Position numbers and translations under genes: made by a program. The notes below the pieces were generated by a model. It was not told the origin of the DNA. It made no database searches and worked only from the letters and a program-made list of their open reading frames with translations. A stretch of DNA of 64,000 nt from Mesostigma viride (taxonomy: Eukaryota > Streptophyta > Mesostigmatophyceae > Mesostigmatales > Mesostigmataceae), in the NCBI GenBank assembly GCA_009746045.1, contig RPFO01000065.1:4417785-4481784 (forward strand), in the 5' to 3' direction. Positions 54,440 through 62,309 of the stretch are shown here, in pieces. Position 1 is the first letter of the stretch, and every line of letters begins with the position of its first letter.

Positions 54440-55395
54440 GGGTCAGTCGGGGTAAAATTGGCTCTTTTTTAGCAAATTTAGCAAATTAGCAAATTAGCGG
54501 AGGCCGGGGGGCGAGATTAATTACGAGGTACCTTGAAATTAAATAAGATGCATGCCTCTATCGAGATATATGTTTGGAGGCGAGTTTCTATTGGCGTTAA
54601 TTTGTAGTATTGTACGACAACTGTCAAGGGTGACGGCATGTACTGAAATCGCGGATACTTTCTAGATCGATTGCGCATTCGACGGTTAAAAGGCAGAGCT
54701 GCGGTTGAAAGTACTGTACGTGGGGGGGGACGGTGTTACAACGGGGGGGGGGACGCATTTATGGGGGGGGGGGGACGGTGTTACAACGGGGGGACGGTGT
54801 TACAACGGGGGGACGGTGTTACAACGGGAGGGCGAGATTAATTAAGAGGTACCTTGAAATTAAATAAGACGCATGCCTCTATCGAGATATATGTTTGCAG
54901 GCGAGTTTCTATTGGCGTAAATTTGCAGTATTGTACGACAACTGTCAAGGGTGACGGCATGTACTGAAATCGCGGAAGTGTCGCGGAGACGTTTCTACTT
55001 TCTAGATCGATTGCGCATTCGACGGTTAAGAGGCAGAGGTGCGGTCGACTGGCAGTACTGTACGACGGTGTTGGACGGAATTTCCGGTTAGCGATGCGGT
55101 CTAAAGCTTTGCATGTCACGTTGTCGGATCTTAGCCCTTGCGTCGCGCTGTGCTGTGGCGAACTTATTCTCCGCCGTCAGATTGCACCGTCGATGAGCGT
55201 CGATGCTCGTCGATGAACCCAACGCAAGCCATGTGACGAAAAGAAGTAAAAATTGGTGCGGCGGCCTCTACGGCTGAGTTTGGTCAAGTACGCAACTTGT
55301 AGCCCGGCGACTCCACGTAGAGCAGTCCGCAGGTAGTCCGCCGGCGTTAATTTGTTAATTTTGTTAATTTGTAAACTGGGGACAACCTAGTCGTT
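54440..55395 (+). repeat. Left direct copies of the repeat family flanking the HUH region
   Basis: Two partial copies, 54440-54720 and 54838-55395. Shared phrases with 62310-62935 are GGTAAAATTGGCTC, GAGGTACCTTGAAATTAAAT, GGCGAGTTTCTATTGGCG, ATCGATTGCGCATTCGACGG and GATGAGCGTCGATGCTCGTC. A satellite-like GGGGACGGTGTTACAAC repeat (54720-54835) separates the two copies. Confidence 0.9.
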
Positions 55396-55717
55396 GAAAT
55401 GTCGTTGAAATCCTGCTATTTTGCTAAAAAAATTTCTCGTTTCTGGGATTCCCGCCAATTTTCGACTGTGTGTGCAAGAAAAATTTTGCAAGCATTTCCC
55501 CTCAAAAATTGGACTCTGGCATAAAATTGGAGCTGCTTTAGTAAATGTGTCATGCTTCAACACTTATTTAATTTATTGCATAAAATACAGCCTTTGTAAT
55601 TCATGGAGCATTTGTAATTCGTTAATCATTCATTTGACAATATAATTTCAGGACAGACATTTTTCAATTAAATAAATAATAACACAGCAACATTTACGAA
55701 ACGCAATATCCAAAAAT
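55396..55717. other. Spacer left of the truncated Rep-like gene
   Basis: AT-rich, no gene; 3' flank of the minus-strand gene at 55718. Confidence 0.4.
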
Positions 55718-56410
55718 CTAACCACGTTGCCCACGCAGCGGTGGCAGGGGAGGGAAATGGAGATAGTCGAACTCAAACTCGGCGGAAAGGTCAGCAATGT
55801 CGAGCTGATCCCCGGGGAAATCCCCACGGAAAAAGTCAGCAGACAATGCGTACGCACCCGATTGCAACATGTGCAACAAGGTCAAGGTAAGGCAAGGCCA
55901 GGGGCCGATTACATCCATGTACTGCTCGTACCACGATATTGCGTGCCGGATTATATTAGCCCTATTAACAATGGCGGGTGGGAGCCGAGCAGCCCCTGCG
56001 GGTGGTGATGGGTGTGTGTACGGTTGGTTTGATGACGGCATGGTAGTCGTGATCTCCCCACGCCGGTAGCGTTCGGTGATGGTGGCCTCGTGGAGGTTAA
56101 GCGCCCTCCTAGAATGAAATGATCGCGGCAGAGGACAGCAAACACACAAAAATTCTGGCCGCCGTTCCCTGTATCGCATTGGTCCCGAGACACCGCGTTC
56201 TGGGGAAATCGCTGCATTGGTAGCACCTACAGGAGAGCGTTCGTCTGGCGGTGCAACGTCGTTGGGGGCAGCCATCGCGTTTGGGGCGTGAAGACAACAC
56301 GGATGGTCAGCTGCTGGGTGCGAACAGCAGCTGCACGTGTGAACTTCTACGTGCGACATGATGCGTGCACGTGTGGTAGACACGATACCTTGGTTCAACG
56401 CGTTATTCAA
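55718..56410 (-). CDS. CxCC-finger protein, core-less paralogue of the HUH Rep
   Basis: An uninterrupted ORF of 230 codons; a start at M18 (MSHVEVHTCSCC) is equally possible. Two cysteine clusters are seen: C26-S-C28-C29 and C89-V-C91-C92 followed by R101-R102, L104 and H107. The second cluster has exactly the spacing of the finger in the Rep at 58 kb (C96, C98, C99, R108, R109, L111, H114). Its C-terminal part (W160-Y161 ... TLLHM 177-181 ... SG 184-185 ... L189, A191, F193) aligns with Rep residues 344-376 (WY ... TLAHM ... TG ... L, A, F). The HUH endonuclease core between these parts is absent. The gene is divergent from the Rep genes. A role as DNA-binding partner or competitor of the Rep is inference; a relic of a second element is the main alternative. 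Confidence 0.75.
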   Translation of the reverse strand: MNNALNQGIVSTTRARIMSHVEVHTCSCCSHPAADHPCCLHAPNAMAAPNDVAPPDERSPVGATNAAISPERGVSGPMRYRERRPEFLCVCCPLPRSFHSRRALNLHEATITERYRRGEITTTMPSSNQPYTHPSPPAGAARLPPAIVNRANIIRHAISWYEQYMDVIGPWPCLTLTLLHMLQSGAYALSADFFRGDFPGDQLDIADLSAEFEFDYLHFPPLPPLRGQRG

Positions 56411-56509
56411 GAGAAACTCGACGCGTTTGCGCGAGGCCGCGTAGCTAGATACGATTGTGATTGGGTACGGGGTTTCTCGACATCGTAACCGGTACGAAAG
56501 GGTACATCA

Positions 56510-57332
56510 TGTCCACGTCAGTACGTAACGATGAACAAAAATATCTTTAAAAGGCATAAAATCGTATCCGGCAATAGTAGCATTCCATACGTGCAGCTGA
56601 AACACGGGTACGATGCATCACATGCGCTGGCAAAACTGTGCCCTTCGTAAATATCGCGTCCGTGGAAACATAACGTATCTTTACTACATCTTTTAACGTA
56701 ACCAATTACGGCTACAGAAAGCATGCCATTCGTCCCTTGTACGTACTGAATATTTACGTGGTTCAGTTTTGCCCTTATTTCACGCGGTGGTGAAATCTTC
56801 TGCAGATTTTTTTGTCCGAAAGCAGGTCTACACAGTGTCCTCTGTCCACATGTCCCCTTGCATGCTTGCGAACCGGTACATTTGGCAAACAAGCACGTCA
56901 GCATGCACGCAGACGCGTATTTTCCTGTAAGTTGTCCCGCCTTGTGAGGAGGAAGGTGACGAATCCCAACGAGTCAGCTATGACGTCTAAGTAAACACGT
57001 TGCAGGGGCTGTGGCCCATAGCGTCCTGAAATGCTAGGGAAAATCAGGACATGACAGAGAAACGGCATAAAATCTTATACTGCTCTAGTTGCGTCCCAAT
57101 TCCCATACGGGAAGCCCATACATGCGTAAGTCTCATGATATGCGCTGGCAAAACCGTCCTCTCTGTTAAAAGCGTGGCGTGCAAATACAACGCGGCTGAA
57201 AATCGTACGGTGTCCACCAGGTAAGTACATTGCAAGCTTGGCATTTTGACGCGGTTCATTTTGGCATATCTGATTTGGCAAACGGGCACGTCAGCGCCGG
57301 CCTGTTTTGGGTTGACTTGTCCGCTTTGGGGG
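56510..57332 (+). promoter_or_regulatory. Divergent intergenic region with duplicated promoter-like segment
   Basis: Two diverged direct copies, about 56540-56990 and 57060-57390, share GGCATAAAATC, ATGCGCTGGCAAAAC and ATTTGGCAAAC followed by GCACGTCAGC. The right copy leads straight into the coiled-coil ORF. The left copy continues into a decayed version of that ORF's first about 20 codons. ACGTCAG boxes (reverse CTGACGT) occur near 56515, 56893 and 57289 and could bind bZIP-type factors. Confidence 0.55.
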
Positions 57333-58181
57333 ATGGAGGAAGACGATGCCGAAAGGGTCAAGCTACGACGCCTTACCAAAGAAGCCACGGCCACCGTTTC
57401 CCGGTGGCGAAGTGAAGCTGCCAAAGAAAAACAGGACATGAGCGAGTTTCGAAAACTGGCCTCGCAGGGCCTCTTTCGGAATCTGGTAGAGTCTGTTAAC
57501 GAGAGGCGTGTCAAATTAGCGGACGCCATTAAGGAAAGGGGGGTGCAACTGGAGAAAGCAGCAAACAGTGTGGAGCATCAAAGCAATGTTGTAAAGGACG
57601 CCAAACAGGCCTACCAGAATTATAAGAACAGGATCCAGGAGGAATGCGACAAAAAGATTAACAAGGGTTACAGTGACCTTCTGGAGGAGCATCTGAACAC
57701 GTTGGAGAGATTGAAAACCATTTATGCCAGAAAGGAGGCCGCCTGGGACAAGGAGGTGGCCAAGAAGACACAGGAGGTCTTGTCGGTGCTAGAAACCGTT
57801 TGCCCCCTGCTCGGAGATGCTGTTTCAAGGGCATCCTCCTCTACCACTGTGCAAGAACTTGCTGCATCTCAAGATGATGATGACTTCCTTGATGCGTTCT
57901 GTCTAGGTAGGGCTGCTGTCGAGTCTCAAAATTCTGATGCTGTAACGCCCATTTCCAAGGACCTTGAGGAGGGGACCCCTGTCAGTACCAAAAATGGCAA
58001 AGGGAAAGACCCGTCTTCGTCCACTAAGAGGCAGCTGTACACAACCAACAGTGACGATGAGCGACCCAGCAAGCAGCCCGCCACCTCTGACACCGCCGTC
58101 GCCCTCTCCACCGGAGGACGACCTGCCTCCTCAGGCGGACAACCTCCCTCATGTGGAGGGGCGGACACTACGTCGTCATAA
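57333..58181 (+). CDS. Coiled-coil ORF1 of the Replitron-like unit
   Basis: The ATG at 57333 gives 282 residues (MEEDDAERVK...). Residues about 10-150 are charged and heptad-like, a long coiled coil (for example ERRVKLADAIKERG, LEEHLNTLERLKTIYARKE). The C-terminal half is Ser/Asp-rich and disordered. No cysteine finger or enzymatic motif is seen. The last 125 bases overlap the start of the Rep ORF in the +1 frame. It may be an oligomerising partner of the Rep; function unknown. A spliced fusion to the Rep is possible (GTAGGG donor-like site at 57906) but unproven. Confidence 0.75.
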   Translation: MEEDDAERVKLRRLTKEATATVSRWRSEAAKEKQDMSEFRKLASQGLFRNLVESVNERRVKLADAIKERGVQLEKAANSVEHQSNVVKDAKQAYQNYKNRIQEECDKKINKGYSDLLEEHLNTLERLKTIYARKEAAWDKEVAKKTQEVLSVLETVCPLLGDAVSRASSSTTVQELAASQDDDDFLDAFCLGRAAVESQNSDAVTPISKDLEEGTPVSTKNGKGKDPSSSTKRQLYTTNSDDERPSKQPATSDTAVALSTGGRPASSGGQPPSCGGADTTSS

Positions 58182-59700
58182 TCTGGTGGTGTGTGATGAC
58201 GAGGAGGAAGATGATACCCCTCTAGACCCCCTGACTTGTGAGGAAGACCTGGTGGATACCCCTCATGTGTCTCGCGCTGCATCAGTGCATGTGACATTTG
58301 AAGGAGAAGAGGCAAGTGCCGAAGCCGCCAACCCCCTGACGTGTGCGTGCTGCACGCCCCCTTGGACTGCAAAGACGAGGCGTGGGCTGAGCAAGCACGT
58401 CAACACTCAGATCAGAAAACGGTAAACGTTTTCAAGTCGTGTGTTTCCTCAGAATTTTTTCATTGCTGATTTTCTGTCAAGGATTGTGCCATTCACGTCA
58501 AATCACTCATACTTTCTGAGTTGTAATGTTTTTCCTTTTTTTTTGTGCAGGCAGCGCGCCCTTGAAGAGGAGCTAGATGCGGATGAAGCGCCGGAGGCAC
58601 CGGTTGACGACAATCCGGCTGAAGATGCGGCTGAAGATGCAGCAGCGGATGAAGACGACGGGGAGGACTTTGTTCCCCTGAAGCCCAAGAAGAAGCGCAA
58701 GGCAACAACCGTGCTGAAAAATTTTGTCGTGCACATAACCGTGTCCGGCGGAAGCCGTCACTTGACAGATGAGGAAATCGGCATTATAACAGCATTCCAT
58801 GATAAGAATGGTAAAAAGGGCCTGTCAATCATTGAGGAAGGCCAACTAGAGGATCACAAGCACGCCCATATGTTAATGGAAATTCAGGCCACGTCCACGC
58901 GGGCGTACAAGGCGGAACTAAAGGCCGCACTTGGGTGGGACAACCCAGTGGATGAACGAGGCAACTTTGATAAAAACAAACCGAGCATCAAAATTAGGGA
59001 GGTGAAGAGCAGCCACAAGATCAACTATTCAGGGATGATAGGCTACCTGCTCAAATCTGAGAACGAGCAAAGCTTTGAAATATTGTACCAGCATGACATT
59101 GACATGGATGAAATGGAGGAGGGTAGAATAGAGTACATGCTCCACGGATCGCCCACTTTGAAGGGCAGGCTGTGTTTGACTGCCTTCAACTTGCTAGAAC
59201 GGGCTGCCGTGTATTGGTACAAACACCACAATGAGATCAGCCGCGAGCCTAGCTTGATCAGGACTTTGGCGCACATGTTCAAAACAGGTCGCTTCTCTCT
59301 AGACGCAAAATTCCTAGTTGGAAGGGGTCTGGACTATCCCCGTGCCCAATCTGCATTTAGTGAAATCATGGTCGAGCCCAAGTTGGGTGACCACTCACTG
59401 CATGTGATTGCACGTGCCCTAGAGCCGCGCGAGCGCTACTTTGAGACAGATCAGTTGGCCCCTGTGTTTCCCAACGCACGTGCTGGGTTGCGGCAAGAAC
59501 GGGCTGCCGAGAGGGAGGCCATGGCAATTGACATGGACGCCATCCTCGATGAGGTGCGACGCCCTCCGCGTAACAACAATGACCTGGATGATGACACCCT
59601 CATTGAGAAAATCCTACAAGACCGCGATAACAAGGCGCGGCAGAAACGCCCTATCAGGGTGGACAGCGATAGCGAGTCTTATGAGTCGGAACTGGAGTAG
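58057..59700 (+). CDS. HUH (Y1) endonuclease, Replitron-like Rep protein
   Basis: Two exons, 58057-58421 and 58551-59700, join in phase (CG|G) through a 129-base GT-AG intron with a T-rich acceptor; 504 residues. Order: acidic Pro-rich N-terminus; CxCC finger (C96, C98, C99 ... R108, R109, L111, H114); acidic linker and a KPKKKRK nuclear-localisation-like patch; HUH nuclease with FVVHITVSGG (180-189) as first strand, H226-A-H228 followed by MLMEI as the metal site, and Y287-LL-K290 as the catalytic tyrosine motif; C-terminal helical domain (344-400) and acidic tail. There is no Walker A/B, so no helicase, unlike Helitron or CRESS Reps. Y1 HUH proteins nick and join single strands. Replitrons of algae are the best-fitting group. 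All catalytic residues are intact. Confidence 0.85.
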
Positions 59701-59824
59701 AAAACCCAGCACATGTGAATGCAGAAATGCGTGCCATGGGATGATGTGATTTCATGAGGTCCATGTGAAACCAGATATGCATGTTTGGATGTAGGGTGTT
59801 TTTATGAGACGTACAGCTTCAGCA
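59701..59824 (+). other. 3' flank of the Rep gene up to the RT-element insertion
   Basis: Carries a repeated phrase CATGTGAA...CAGA-ATGC (59712, 59760). The original sequence continues at 62171 once the RT element is removed. Confidence 0.4.
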
Positions 59825-61347
59825 TGACATCAAAGAGACAACCAGCGCAGGCCAGAAATCGGGAGAATCCGGACCATGGTAGCTCGAGCCTGCCGTTATC
59901 TTTTCCGCGTTTTCGAGTCGTTCAGGATGATGAAGATGAATGGTGATGGAAATGTGTATCCTTGTGCATTGAAATTATGGCTGGCTTACGTGTGGAGCGA
60001 CTAGATGACCTAGACGGTGGGGCCGGAAACAGCATGCTTGATCAGGGCGTGTGTTTCTAGCCTAACTGGCCGGGAGTGTCTAGTGGTGAGCACCATTGCT
60101 GCGATCGCTCTCCCACCATTTACGAGGAAATACCCGCAAATGGAAAACCACTGAAAAGGTCTAGCTAGTCAGTCATCACGTTAGCCATGCCATGATTCCA
60201 AACGTCCAAGAACTGCACACGGTGCAAAGGCAAAAAGCCGGAGGACAGCACTTTCAAATGTGCGGCGGGAACCAAAAGCCCGCGGATGCCAGAAAACATC
60301 GTGTTGCGGCAGCGACGCGACGATGTGGACAACGAATCCAGTGCCAAGCTCGGAACGGCCGCAAAGGAGATCTGGCATCACAGGGTTCAGATGTGCGGAG
60401 ATACTATGCGATCCAGCCGGTCCACGACCTGTTTGTAGAGCTTGTGCCAAGGGGCAGCACCGAACAGATGTGGGTGACGTTGCAAAAAACATCGGACTTG
60501 TCGGAGCATAATGGCTCGGTCATAGTCTTTGACCAATAAACGCTGCAAGAGTTCAACAAGAGTCGTGATGAAATCAACACGATAAGAACAAAGACGGGAA
60601 AAACGATGTAACTGAGAAAGAACAACACCATATTTTGCTGTGTGGGAAAGGAGACTGTGAATATCGGGGTAACGAATAAAAGGAATTTGCTGGTATTTAG
60701 GATCCTTGCGCTTATCATAGACAGCCGTACGCCAGCCCTTCTTGTTATGGGTAATGTTAAGATCGAGGTAATTGCAATGAGTATCCTCCGACGTGAGCTT
60801 TAATGTGAGGGACGCTTGCGGGTAGATGCCAGGCAGACCAGCGGTGATATACAAATGGGTTGCGAAATCAGGGTTGTCGAAAGCGATGACATCATCAATG
60901 TATCGACATGTATAGTGGATAAAACGCCTGATGAGAACATCATCGTTTGAGGCAATGAGATTCTCCATGAATGCAAGCTCATAAGTGTATAGATAGAGGT
61001 TTGCAAGGAGCCCGGCACAGTTAGTGCCCATAGGGATGCCGATAGCTTGTTGGTATACATTGCCCGCAAAACAGATGAAGGTGTTATCAACAAGATAAGA
61101 GATCCAATGGACAAGGTCAGCCTTCGTGATAATATAATTATAACCATCCCGCACGATAGCACCTGCCGCGATCCCTGAGAGCCACGTTGCCGTGGGCTTG
61201 GTCTGAGAAACACGCACGTGCAGGTGGTTGCGCCCGTGAGGCCTACGTGCATACAGACGAGTAAGGAGGCTATCTAGACGGGCTTTCAAATCGTGCAAAT
61301 CTAGTGTGGTATATAGAGTGGTGAAATCATAGGTGGCTATGGGCATA

Positions 61348-61380
61348 GGTATACCAAAGAGACAACCAGCGCTGGTATAC
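61348..61380 (-). mobile_element. Micro-insertion: 19-bp retroelement 3' end with 7-bp target duplication
   Basis: GGTATAC at 61348-61354 and 61374-61380 flanks 19 bases (61355-61373, CAAAGAGACAACCAGCGCT) equal to the end of the host RT element. It lies inside the RT coding region. Confidence 0.8.
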
Positions 61381-61765
61381 GTTTCTCTGCTGCTGTCTTA
61401 GAACGGCTAAGGGCGGCAAGGCGTAGGCGTACTTGGGCTGAGTCTATGACGATCCAACTACCAGCGCATTCATACCCGGCATTCGACAGCACCTCCACCC
61501 ATAATGCATTGGCTTCGGGGAGAAGAGCATTCAAAGCATGGCAGATGAGTTTCGAGAGAGGCATCAGTGGGGCTGAATGCGACGCAGCAATGGTGCGCAA
61601 AGCAACAGGAGTTTTGTGCAGCTTAAGAGTGAGATACAGATATGGGAACGTAGTGGTGGTGGCGCGTCGCTGCCGCTTAAGGAATGCCCGAGCAAAAATG
61701 TTTTGGCTGTGCAGAAAAGCCCGATGAGCAGCAGTGATACTGGCGGTGGACTGTGCACGCTGAAC

Positions 61766-62049
61766 ATAGGTAGACACTCCCGTCACCACTAGACACTCCC
61801 GGCCAGTTAGGCTAGAAACACACGCCCTGATCAAGCATGCTGTTTCCGGCCCCACCGTCTAGGTCATCTAGTCGCTCCACACGTAAGCCAGCCATAATTT
61901 CAATGCACAAGGATACACATTTCCATCACCATTCATCTTCATCATCCTGAACGACTCGAAAACGCGGAAAAGATAACGGCAGGCTCGAGCTACCATGGTC
62001 CGGATTCTCCCGATTTCTGGCCTGCGCTGGTTGTCTCTTTGATAGGTAG
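61766..62049 (+). mobile_element. 268-bp 3'-tail retrocopy inserted in the RT gene, 8-bp target duplication
   Basis: ATAGGTAG at 61766-61773 and 62042-62049 flanks 61774-62041. The insert is the reverse complement of the host element's own 3' region (59831 to about 60080). Only the 3' end is present and it ends exactly at CTCTTTG, as in a target-primed, 5'-truncated copy. Confidence 0.88.
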
Positions 62050-62309
62050 GGCTGGACGCCAACTCGTGTTGCAAAGTAGCAAGGTAGTGCTTCTTGCATA
62101 TGAAAGCAAAGTTGTTGGCACTCTTGTCAACACACGTGATGATAAAGTCCTGCTTGAAGTGGTCAAGAAGTGACATCTTTACCTAGGTGACTTAAAATTT
62201 CTGTGTAACTATTTTTTAATAAAAAACCAAGTTTTTTGGCGGGAAACGAGAAACGAGAAACGAGAAAAATGCACCTCGAGCCAATCGTAGAAAATAAGTA
62301 GTTGGGGTC

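Follow-up and report, generated by a model that had tools for sequence, protein, structure and literature searches.

Organization of the locus

The window, i.e. the whole 64,000-nucleotide stretch of Mesostigma viride DNA that we analyzed, contains, as judged from its sequence, a three-gene Replitron: a Rep nuclease gene, an overlapping reading frame (ORF1) and, in divergent orientation, a shortened Rep paralogue, hereafter called the minus gene. The features are the following.

about 55393..62294, plus strand: Replitron copy, ~4.56 kb once an insertion of ~2.35 kb (about 59832-62177) is excluded
55403: 5' terminus CGTTGAAATCC, with its own partial copy just before, at 55392
55718..56359, minus strand: minus gene, 213-residue nuclease-less Rep paralogue (ATG at 56359, stop at 55718)
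55823..55957, minus strand: C-terminal block of the minus gene, common to Rep
56090..56146, minus strand: finger of the minus gene, CVCCPLPRSFHSRRALNLH
56549..56675, plus strand: direct repeat R1, ~127 bp, between the divergent genes
57060..57192, plus strand: direct repeat R2, upstream of ORF1
57333..58181, plus strand: ORF1, whose end overlaps the Rep start (57994) in another frame
57994..58421, plus strand: Rep exon 1 (MAKGK start, acidic region, finger at 58342-58398)
58422..58550, plus strand: predicted Rep intron, GTAAAC...GTGCAG, of fitting phase and without codon-position signal
58551..59700, plus strand: Rep exon 2 (HUH, YLLK, C-terminal block)
58855-58875, plus strand: HUH motif of Rep, HKHAHML
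59044-59046, plus strand: tyrosine of the Rep YLLK motif
59263-59280, plus strand: TLAHMF within the Rep C-terminal block
59825-59831 and 62171-62177: TGACATC duplication flanking the inserted element
59832..62177, minus strand: inserted element splitting the Replitron 3' end; no Pfam match for its ORFs
62286-62294: 3' terminus CGTAGAAAA, aligned in five copies and in locus L034

Removal of the intron, itself a prediction from the sequence, leaves the Rep exons at 57994-58421 and 58551-59700 in phase, giving a protein of 525 residues. P0003, an annotated Rep relative, corresponds to two exons at 100% identity in the window's own assembly (L016) and is split there near the same place; another protein, P0004, shares the MAKGK start. 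The assignment of Rep to the Replitron type, made in the initial annotation, was borne out: the protein scored 37.8 bits against the Pfam model Replitron_HUH (PF21859, cut-off 28.5) and carries both HKHAHML and YLLK. At least two relatives were found in the protein database at E ≤ 0.001 (7997 candidates scored), and the genome search for Rep gave at least 104 matches with 100 of 450 candidates scored. On contig C1513 (L030), two Rep copies lie in inverted orientation; their arms share 98% identity across 2 kb, and a further palindrome, of 95%, separates them. ORF1, which looks coiled-coil-like by eye, gave sub-threshold Pfam matches at best.

A second copy and the ends of the element

A colinear copy with inserts and the same gene order is present on contig C1904 (44778-52629 and beyond; L009) and is, piece by piece, 83-90% identical to the window. 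Immediately next to the element, the sequence is not the same in the two copies. They do have in common an 840-bp stretch some kb to the left (85%) and, close by on the right, a shortened Replitron; we rejected these flanks as evidence of a segmental duplication, because the former also occurs at L014 and L026 and the latter at many loci, so that both look like dispersed repeats. The simplest reading is that the copies are two insertions, with no clean target duplication at either: by eye, the window may have TAGT, L034 TCCAGT and C1904 none. The C1904 copy is decaying. Its Rep match contains four stops, and its minus gene carries frame-breaking indels (+4/+2 and +5/+1 nucleotides), the first pair of which puts the CxCC codons out of frame, as well as a 14-nucleotide insertion before the stop.

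In the alignment of the two copies, homology starts at 55401 of the window. Two further loci, L033 and L034, join the 5' end of the window element to its 3' end around another interior with Rep remnants, which fixes both ends and shows that shorter relatives sharing them exist. The L034 element, with both ends in common with the window Replitron, is ~2.1 kb long. The 5' terminal 81 bp occur at 29 further places in the genome (29 of the 32 rows, with every one of the 32 candidates scored). The 3' part is widespread: scoring 40 of 173 candidates gave at least 75 rows. Terminal inverted repeats are absent, CGTTGAAATCC and CGTAGAAAA being in direct orientation; the 10-bp word TTTCTCGTTT is inverted between the two sides, but at ~30 bp from either end it is subterminal. 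The direct terminal repeats, CGTTGAAA and CGTAGAAA, are imperfect, with 7/8 positions identical and no chance estimate for the match.

The ORFs of the DNA inserted in the 3' end resemble, by eye, a Penelope-like reverse transcriptase; perfect 261-bp inverted repeats (59829-60089 and 61783-62043) lie around them, and an 840-bp part of this inserted element recurs in L033 at 99.8%. On either side, the window element is directly bordered by shortened relatives of the Replitron type found on contig C1801 (54446-55392 and 62300-62937). On C1801 itself (L017, 2452-9335), two 3442-bp Replitrons, 99.7% identical, directly abut head to tail, an arrangement that rolling-circle-type movement could leave.

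Relationship of the minus gene to Rep

According to the initial annotation, the minus ORF repeats the cysteine finger of Rep with the same spacing, repeats its C-terminal block and has no counterpart of its nuclease part. All three statements withstood closer analysis: the exact finger pattern occurs only twice in the window, in the minus gene and in Rep; the block is related to that of Rep with E = 5e-5 among 556 ORFs, which is significant alone; and the HUH profile detected no HUH remnant around the minus gene. The finger is strong as an exact pattern, and a Pfam fungal C2H2 model touches it with E = 7e-4, below the model cut-off. Its profile match alone is not significant, as would be expected if the similarity between the two proteins arose by chance or convergence; we consider this most improbable, however, since two colinear matches lie in one ORF beside Rep and the block match is also found in the C1904 copy.

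The block of the minus protein is 33% identical to that of the window Rep and 39% to that of the C1904 Rep, which indicates that the minus gene is an old paralogue. Identity to the blocks of other families is 34-36% (L015, L017) and, for the distant L026-L028, 26%; these stretches are short and leave the branching point of the paralogue unsettled. The minus protein gave no match at E ≤ 10 in the protein database among candidates of 0.55-1.75 times its length, a range that excludes full Reps. Viral contigs gave no matches, and searches of PDB and PHROGs yielded nothing of use. Predicted models of the two C-terminal-block proteins were too poor for a fold comparison (mean pLDDT 35 and 45). Thus, of the original interpretation, a divergent, nuclease-less Rep paralogue within one unit stood, and was found twice, whereas DNA binding, competition with Rep or its recruitment, and a shared C-terminal fold stay at the level of proposals. 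Separately, L026, which belongs to a distant Replitron family (~38% Rep identity), contains the stretch CDCC...RRRQH, possibly a finger of the same kind.

Selection on the minus gene

All dN/dS and codon-position results come from one pair of copies, the window and C1904, one of which is decaying. In the minus gene, dN/dS was 0.15 for the last third (7 synonymous and 4 non-synonymous changes), 0.18 for the linker, 0.18 for the three best-conserved stretches pooled and 0.42 for the N-terminal stretch, as compared to 0.7-3.2 in the other frames of the last third, linker and N-terminal stretch. Counter to this, the conserved stretch at 56359-56270, taken singly, shows 2 changes, both non-synonymous, and the ratios in its other frames are lower (0.36). 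Changes over the gene were distributed 15/10/29 by codon position, a third-position excess with P = 0.0016, and the controls were flat (7/8/7 upstream of the minus ATG and 8/7/5 in the Rep intron); a noncoding control, 56541-57200, leaned towards the third position, short of significance (P = 0.09). These counts support coding from the ATG at 56359. For Rep, dN/dS was 0.31 in the HUH part and 0.09 at the C-terminus; for ORF1, it was 0.21 before the Rep overlap, within which the ORF1 frame is little constrained (0.89) and the Rep frame more so (0.45).

The minus gene therefore evolves for the most part like a protein gene, which argues for selection and against a decayed piece of Rep. A functionless Rep fragment carried as a passenger, its nuclease lost by deletion, would fit the breakage of one of the two copies, the rarity of the gene (see below) and the absence of synonymous change from the conserved N-terminal stretch. 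The in-frame dN/dS of 0.15-0.18 in the later parts together with the third-position excess, an ORF open over 213 codons in the window and the age implied by the divergence from Rep make this unlikely. We rate as about equally unlikely that the gene is spliced and that the finger cysteines fall within an intron ending TTTCATTCTAG. Conserved segments (95-98%) do alternate with weaker ones (81-88%), in which all but one of the gene's five indels fall, and a pyrimidine-rich tract precedes an AG; but the less conserved segments also show a coding-type distribution (12/7/20 by codon position, P = 0.016), and of 6442 splice choices the 469 open in both copies include none that stands out. The comparison of the two copies supports a gene that travels with the element and has evolved under protein-level constraint.

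Distribution of the minus gene and of ORF1

The whole-genome search with the minus protein returned 11 rows (15 of 15 candidates scored). One is the window itself, two that overlap each other are C1904, and the other eight, weak at E 0.07-0.45, fall within Rep matches, so that this search found no minus gene beyond the window and C1904. Over 20 Rep loci, a profile of the C-terminal block gave a match of the minus-gene type only in the C1904 copy, the others falling on Rep or Rep pieces, and no minus gene was found in the upstream stretches of C402 and C998.

ORF1 is more widespread, with relatives that precede Rep in other families: among the 20 Rep loci, 12 have a strong match, 2 a weak one near the overlap and 6 none. 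The window ORF1 is 32-36% identical to those of L015 and L017 (E 5e-35 to 5e-39). Its presence at most of the Replitron loci examined here points to elements with more than one gene. Eleven loci besides the C1904 copy have a strong ORF1, of which ten hold 2.8-3.7 kb of upstream sequence and L014 none. In these ten, ORF1 overlaps the start of Rep as in the window. The minus gene is absent from all ten and hence dispensable for Replitrons at large. The search for the divergent pair in other copies, which the initial annotation had proposed, located it twice, within a single subfamily of this genome; ten other loci lack it.

Possible role of the minus-gene product

Being apparently kept by selection, the minus gene may regulate or assist Rep. 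The reading that we favor, with a probability of roughly 0.45, is that its product, a Rep paralogue without the nuclease, modulates Rep, most likely by limiting it. The finger would bind element DNA and the C-terminal block would bind Rep or itself, and the product would thereby modulate Rep; limitation would most likely occur through occupation of Rep sites or formation of inactive mixed complexes. Candidate binding sites for the finger proteins are the repeats R1 and R2 or the 10-bp inverted word inside each end. R1 and R2, two 127-bp direct repeats that both lie between the starts of the divergent genes, are 69% alike (E = 3e-11 stretch against stretch, the best of 100 shuffles giving 0.016; E = 1.4e-7 against the whole window), and both are present in the two copies, with GGCATAAAAT and TGCGCTGGCAAAAC invariant.

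Alternatively, the product could be an accessory factor that aids Rep in locating the ends, in nuclear entry or in assembly, in the manner of the Myb-like protein of PIF/Harbinger elements. The need for such a factor would explain the constraint on the minus gene as easily as restraint would, and the passages of PMC9710019 drawn on here describe PIF/Harbinger as requiring two proteins, the second of them DNA-binding. However, other Replitron families, some with near-identical copies (99.7% at L017), lack the gene where examined, and those same passages do not describe the second Harbinger protein as transposase-derived. We regard an accessory role as possible, at a lower probability than modulation of Rep. 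With modest confidence, restraint is more likely than help, although the data do not separate them.

Returning to limitation of Rep, a more specific and tentative version is that the separate, diverged, nuclease-free paralogue binds R1/R2 and restrains both the expression and the activity of Rep. If true, this would provide a eukaryotic class of HUH transposons with a built-in regulator. In any event, a separate Rep-derived gene that lacks the nuclease and is apparently selected offers a handle to test the finger and C-terminal block apart from catalysis.

Comparison with known systems

The founding Replitron paper is reportedly that of Craig (PNAS, 2023). We know of no work on the control of Replitrons. 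Among the papers listed by literature searches on Replitrons and HUH proteins, none described such a partner, an absence that carries little evidential weight. The gene X protein of filamentous phages and Rep52/40 of adeno-associated virus are forms of an HUH initiator that lack the nuclease; these come from the same gene through an internal start or promoter, whereas the minus gene is separate.

The passages of PMC10741241 at hand give Replitrons no terminal inverted repeats, direct terminal repeats of 5-11 bp, a target duplication of 2-8 bp and a size of 0.9-4 kb. The window element resembles those described there in its Replitron-type HUH, its lack of inverted repeats at the ends, its short direct terminal repeats and its green algal host. 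It differs from them in its divergent, nuclease-less Rep paralogue, in the overlapping ORF1, common to other families of this genome, and in its ~4.56 kb without the insertion, the 0.9-4 kb being a reported range and not a definition.

Shortened transposase products also occur in the P element, where, in the part of PMC7776569 used here, the 66-kDa and KP proteins are repressors and the 66-kDa form retains DNA binding. As that part has it, the P element repressors owe their origin to intron retention in the transposase gene or to elements that have suffered deletions, and not to a separate, diverged gene. The P element transposase is unrelated to Rep. Finally, PIF/Harbinger elements, as presented in the cited passages of PMC9710019, likewise encode a second protein with a DNA-binding domain; this domain is Myb-like, whereas the minus protein corresponds to parts of Rep instead.
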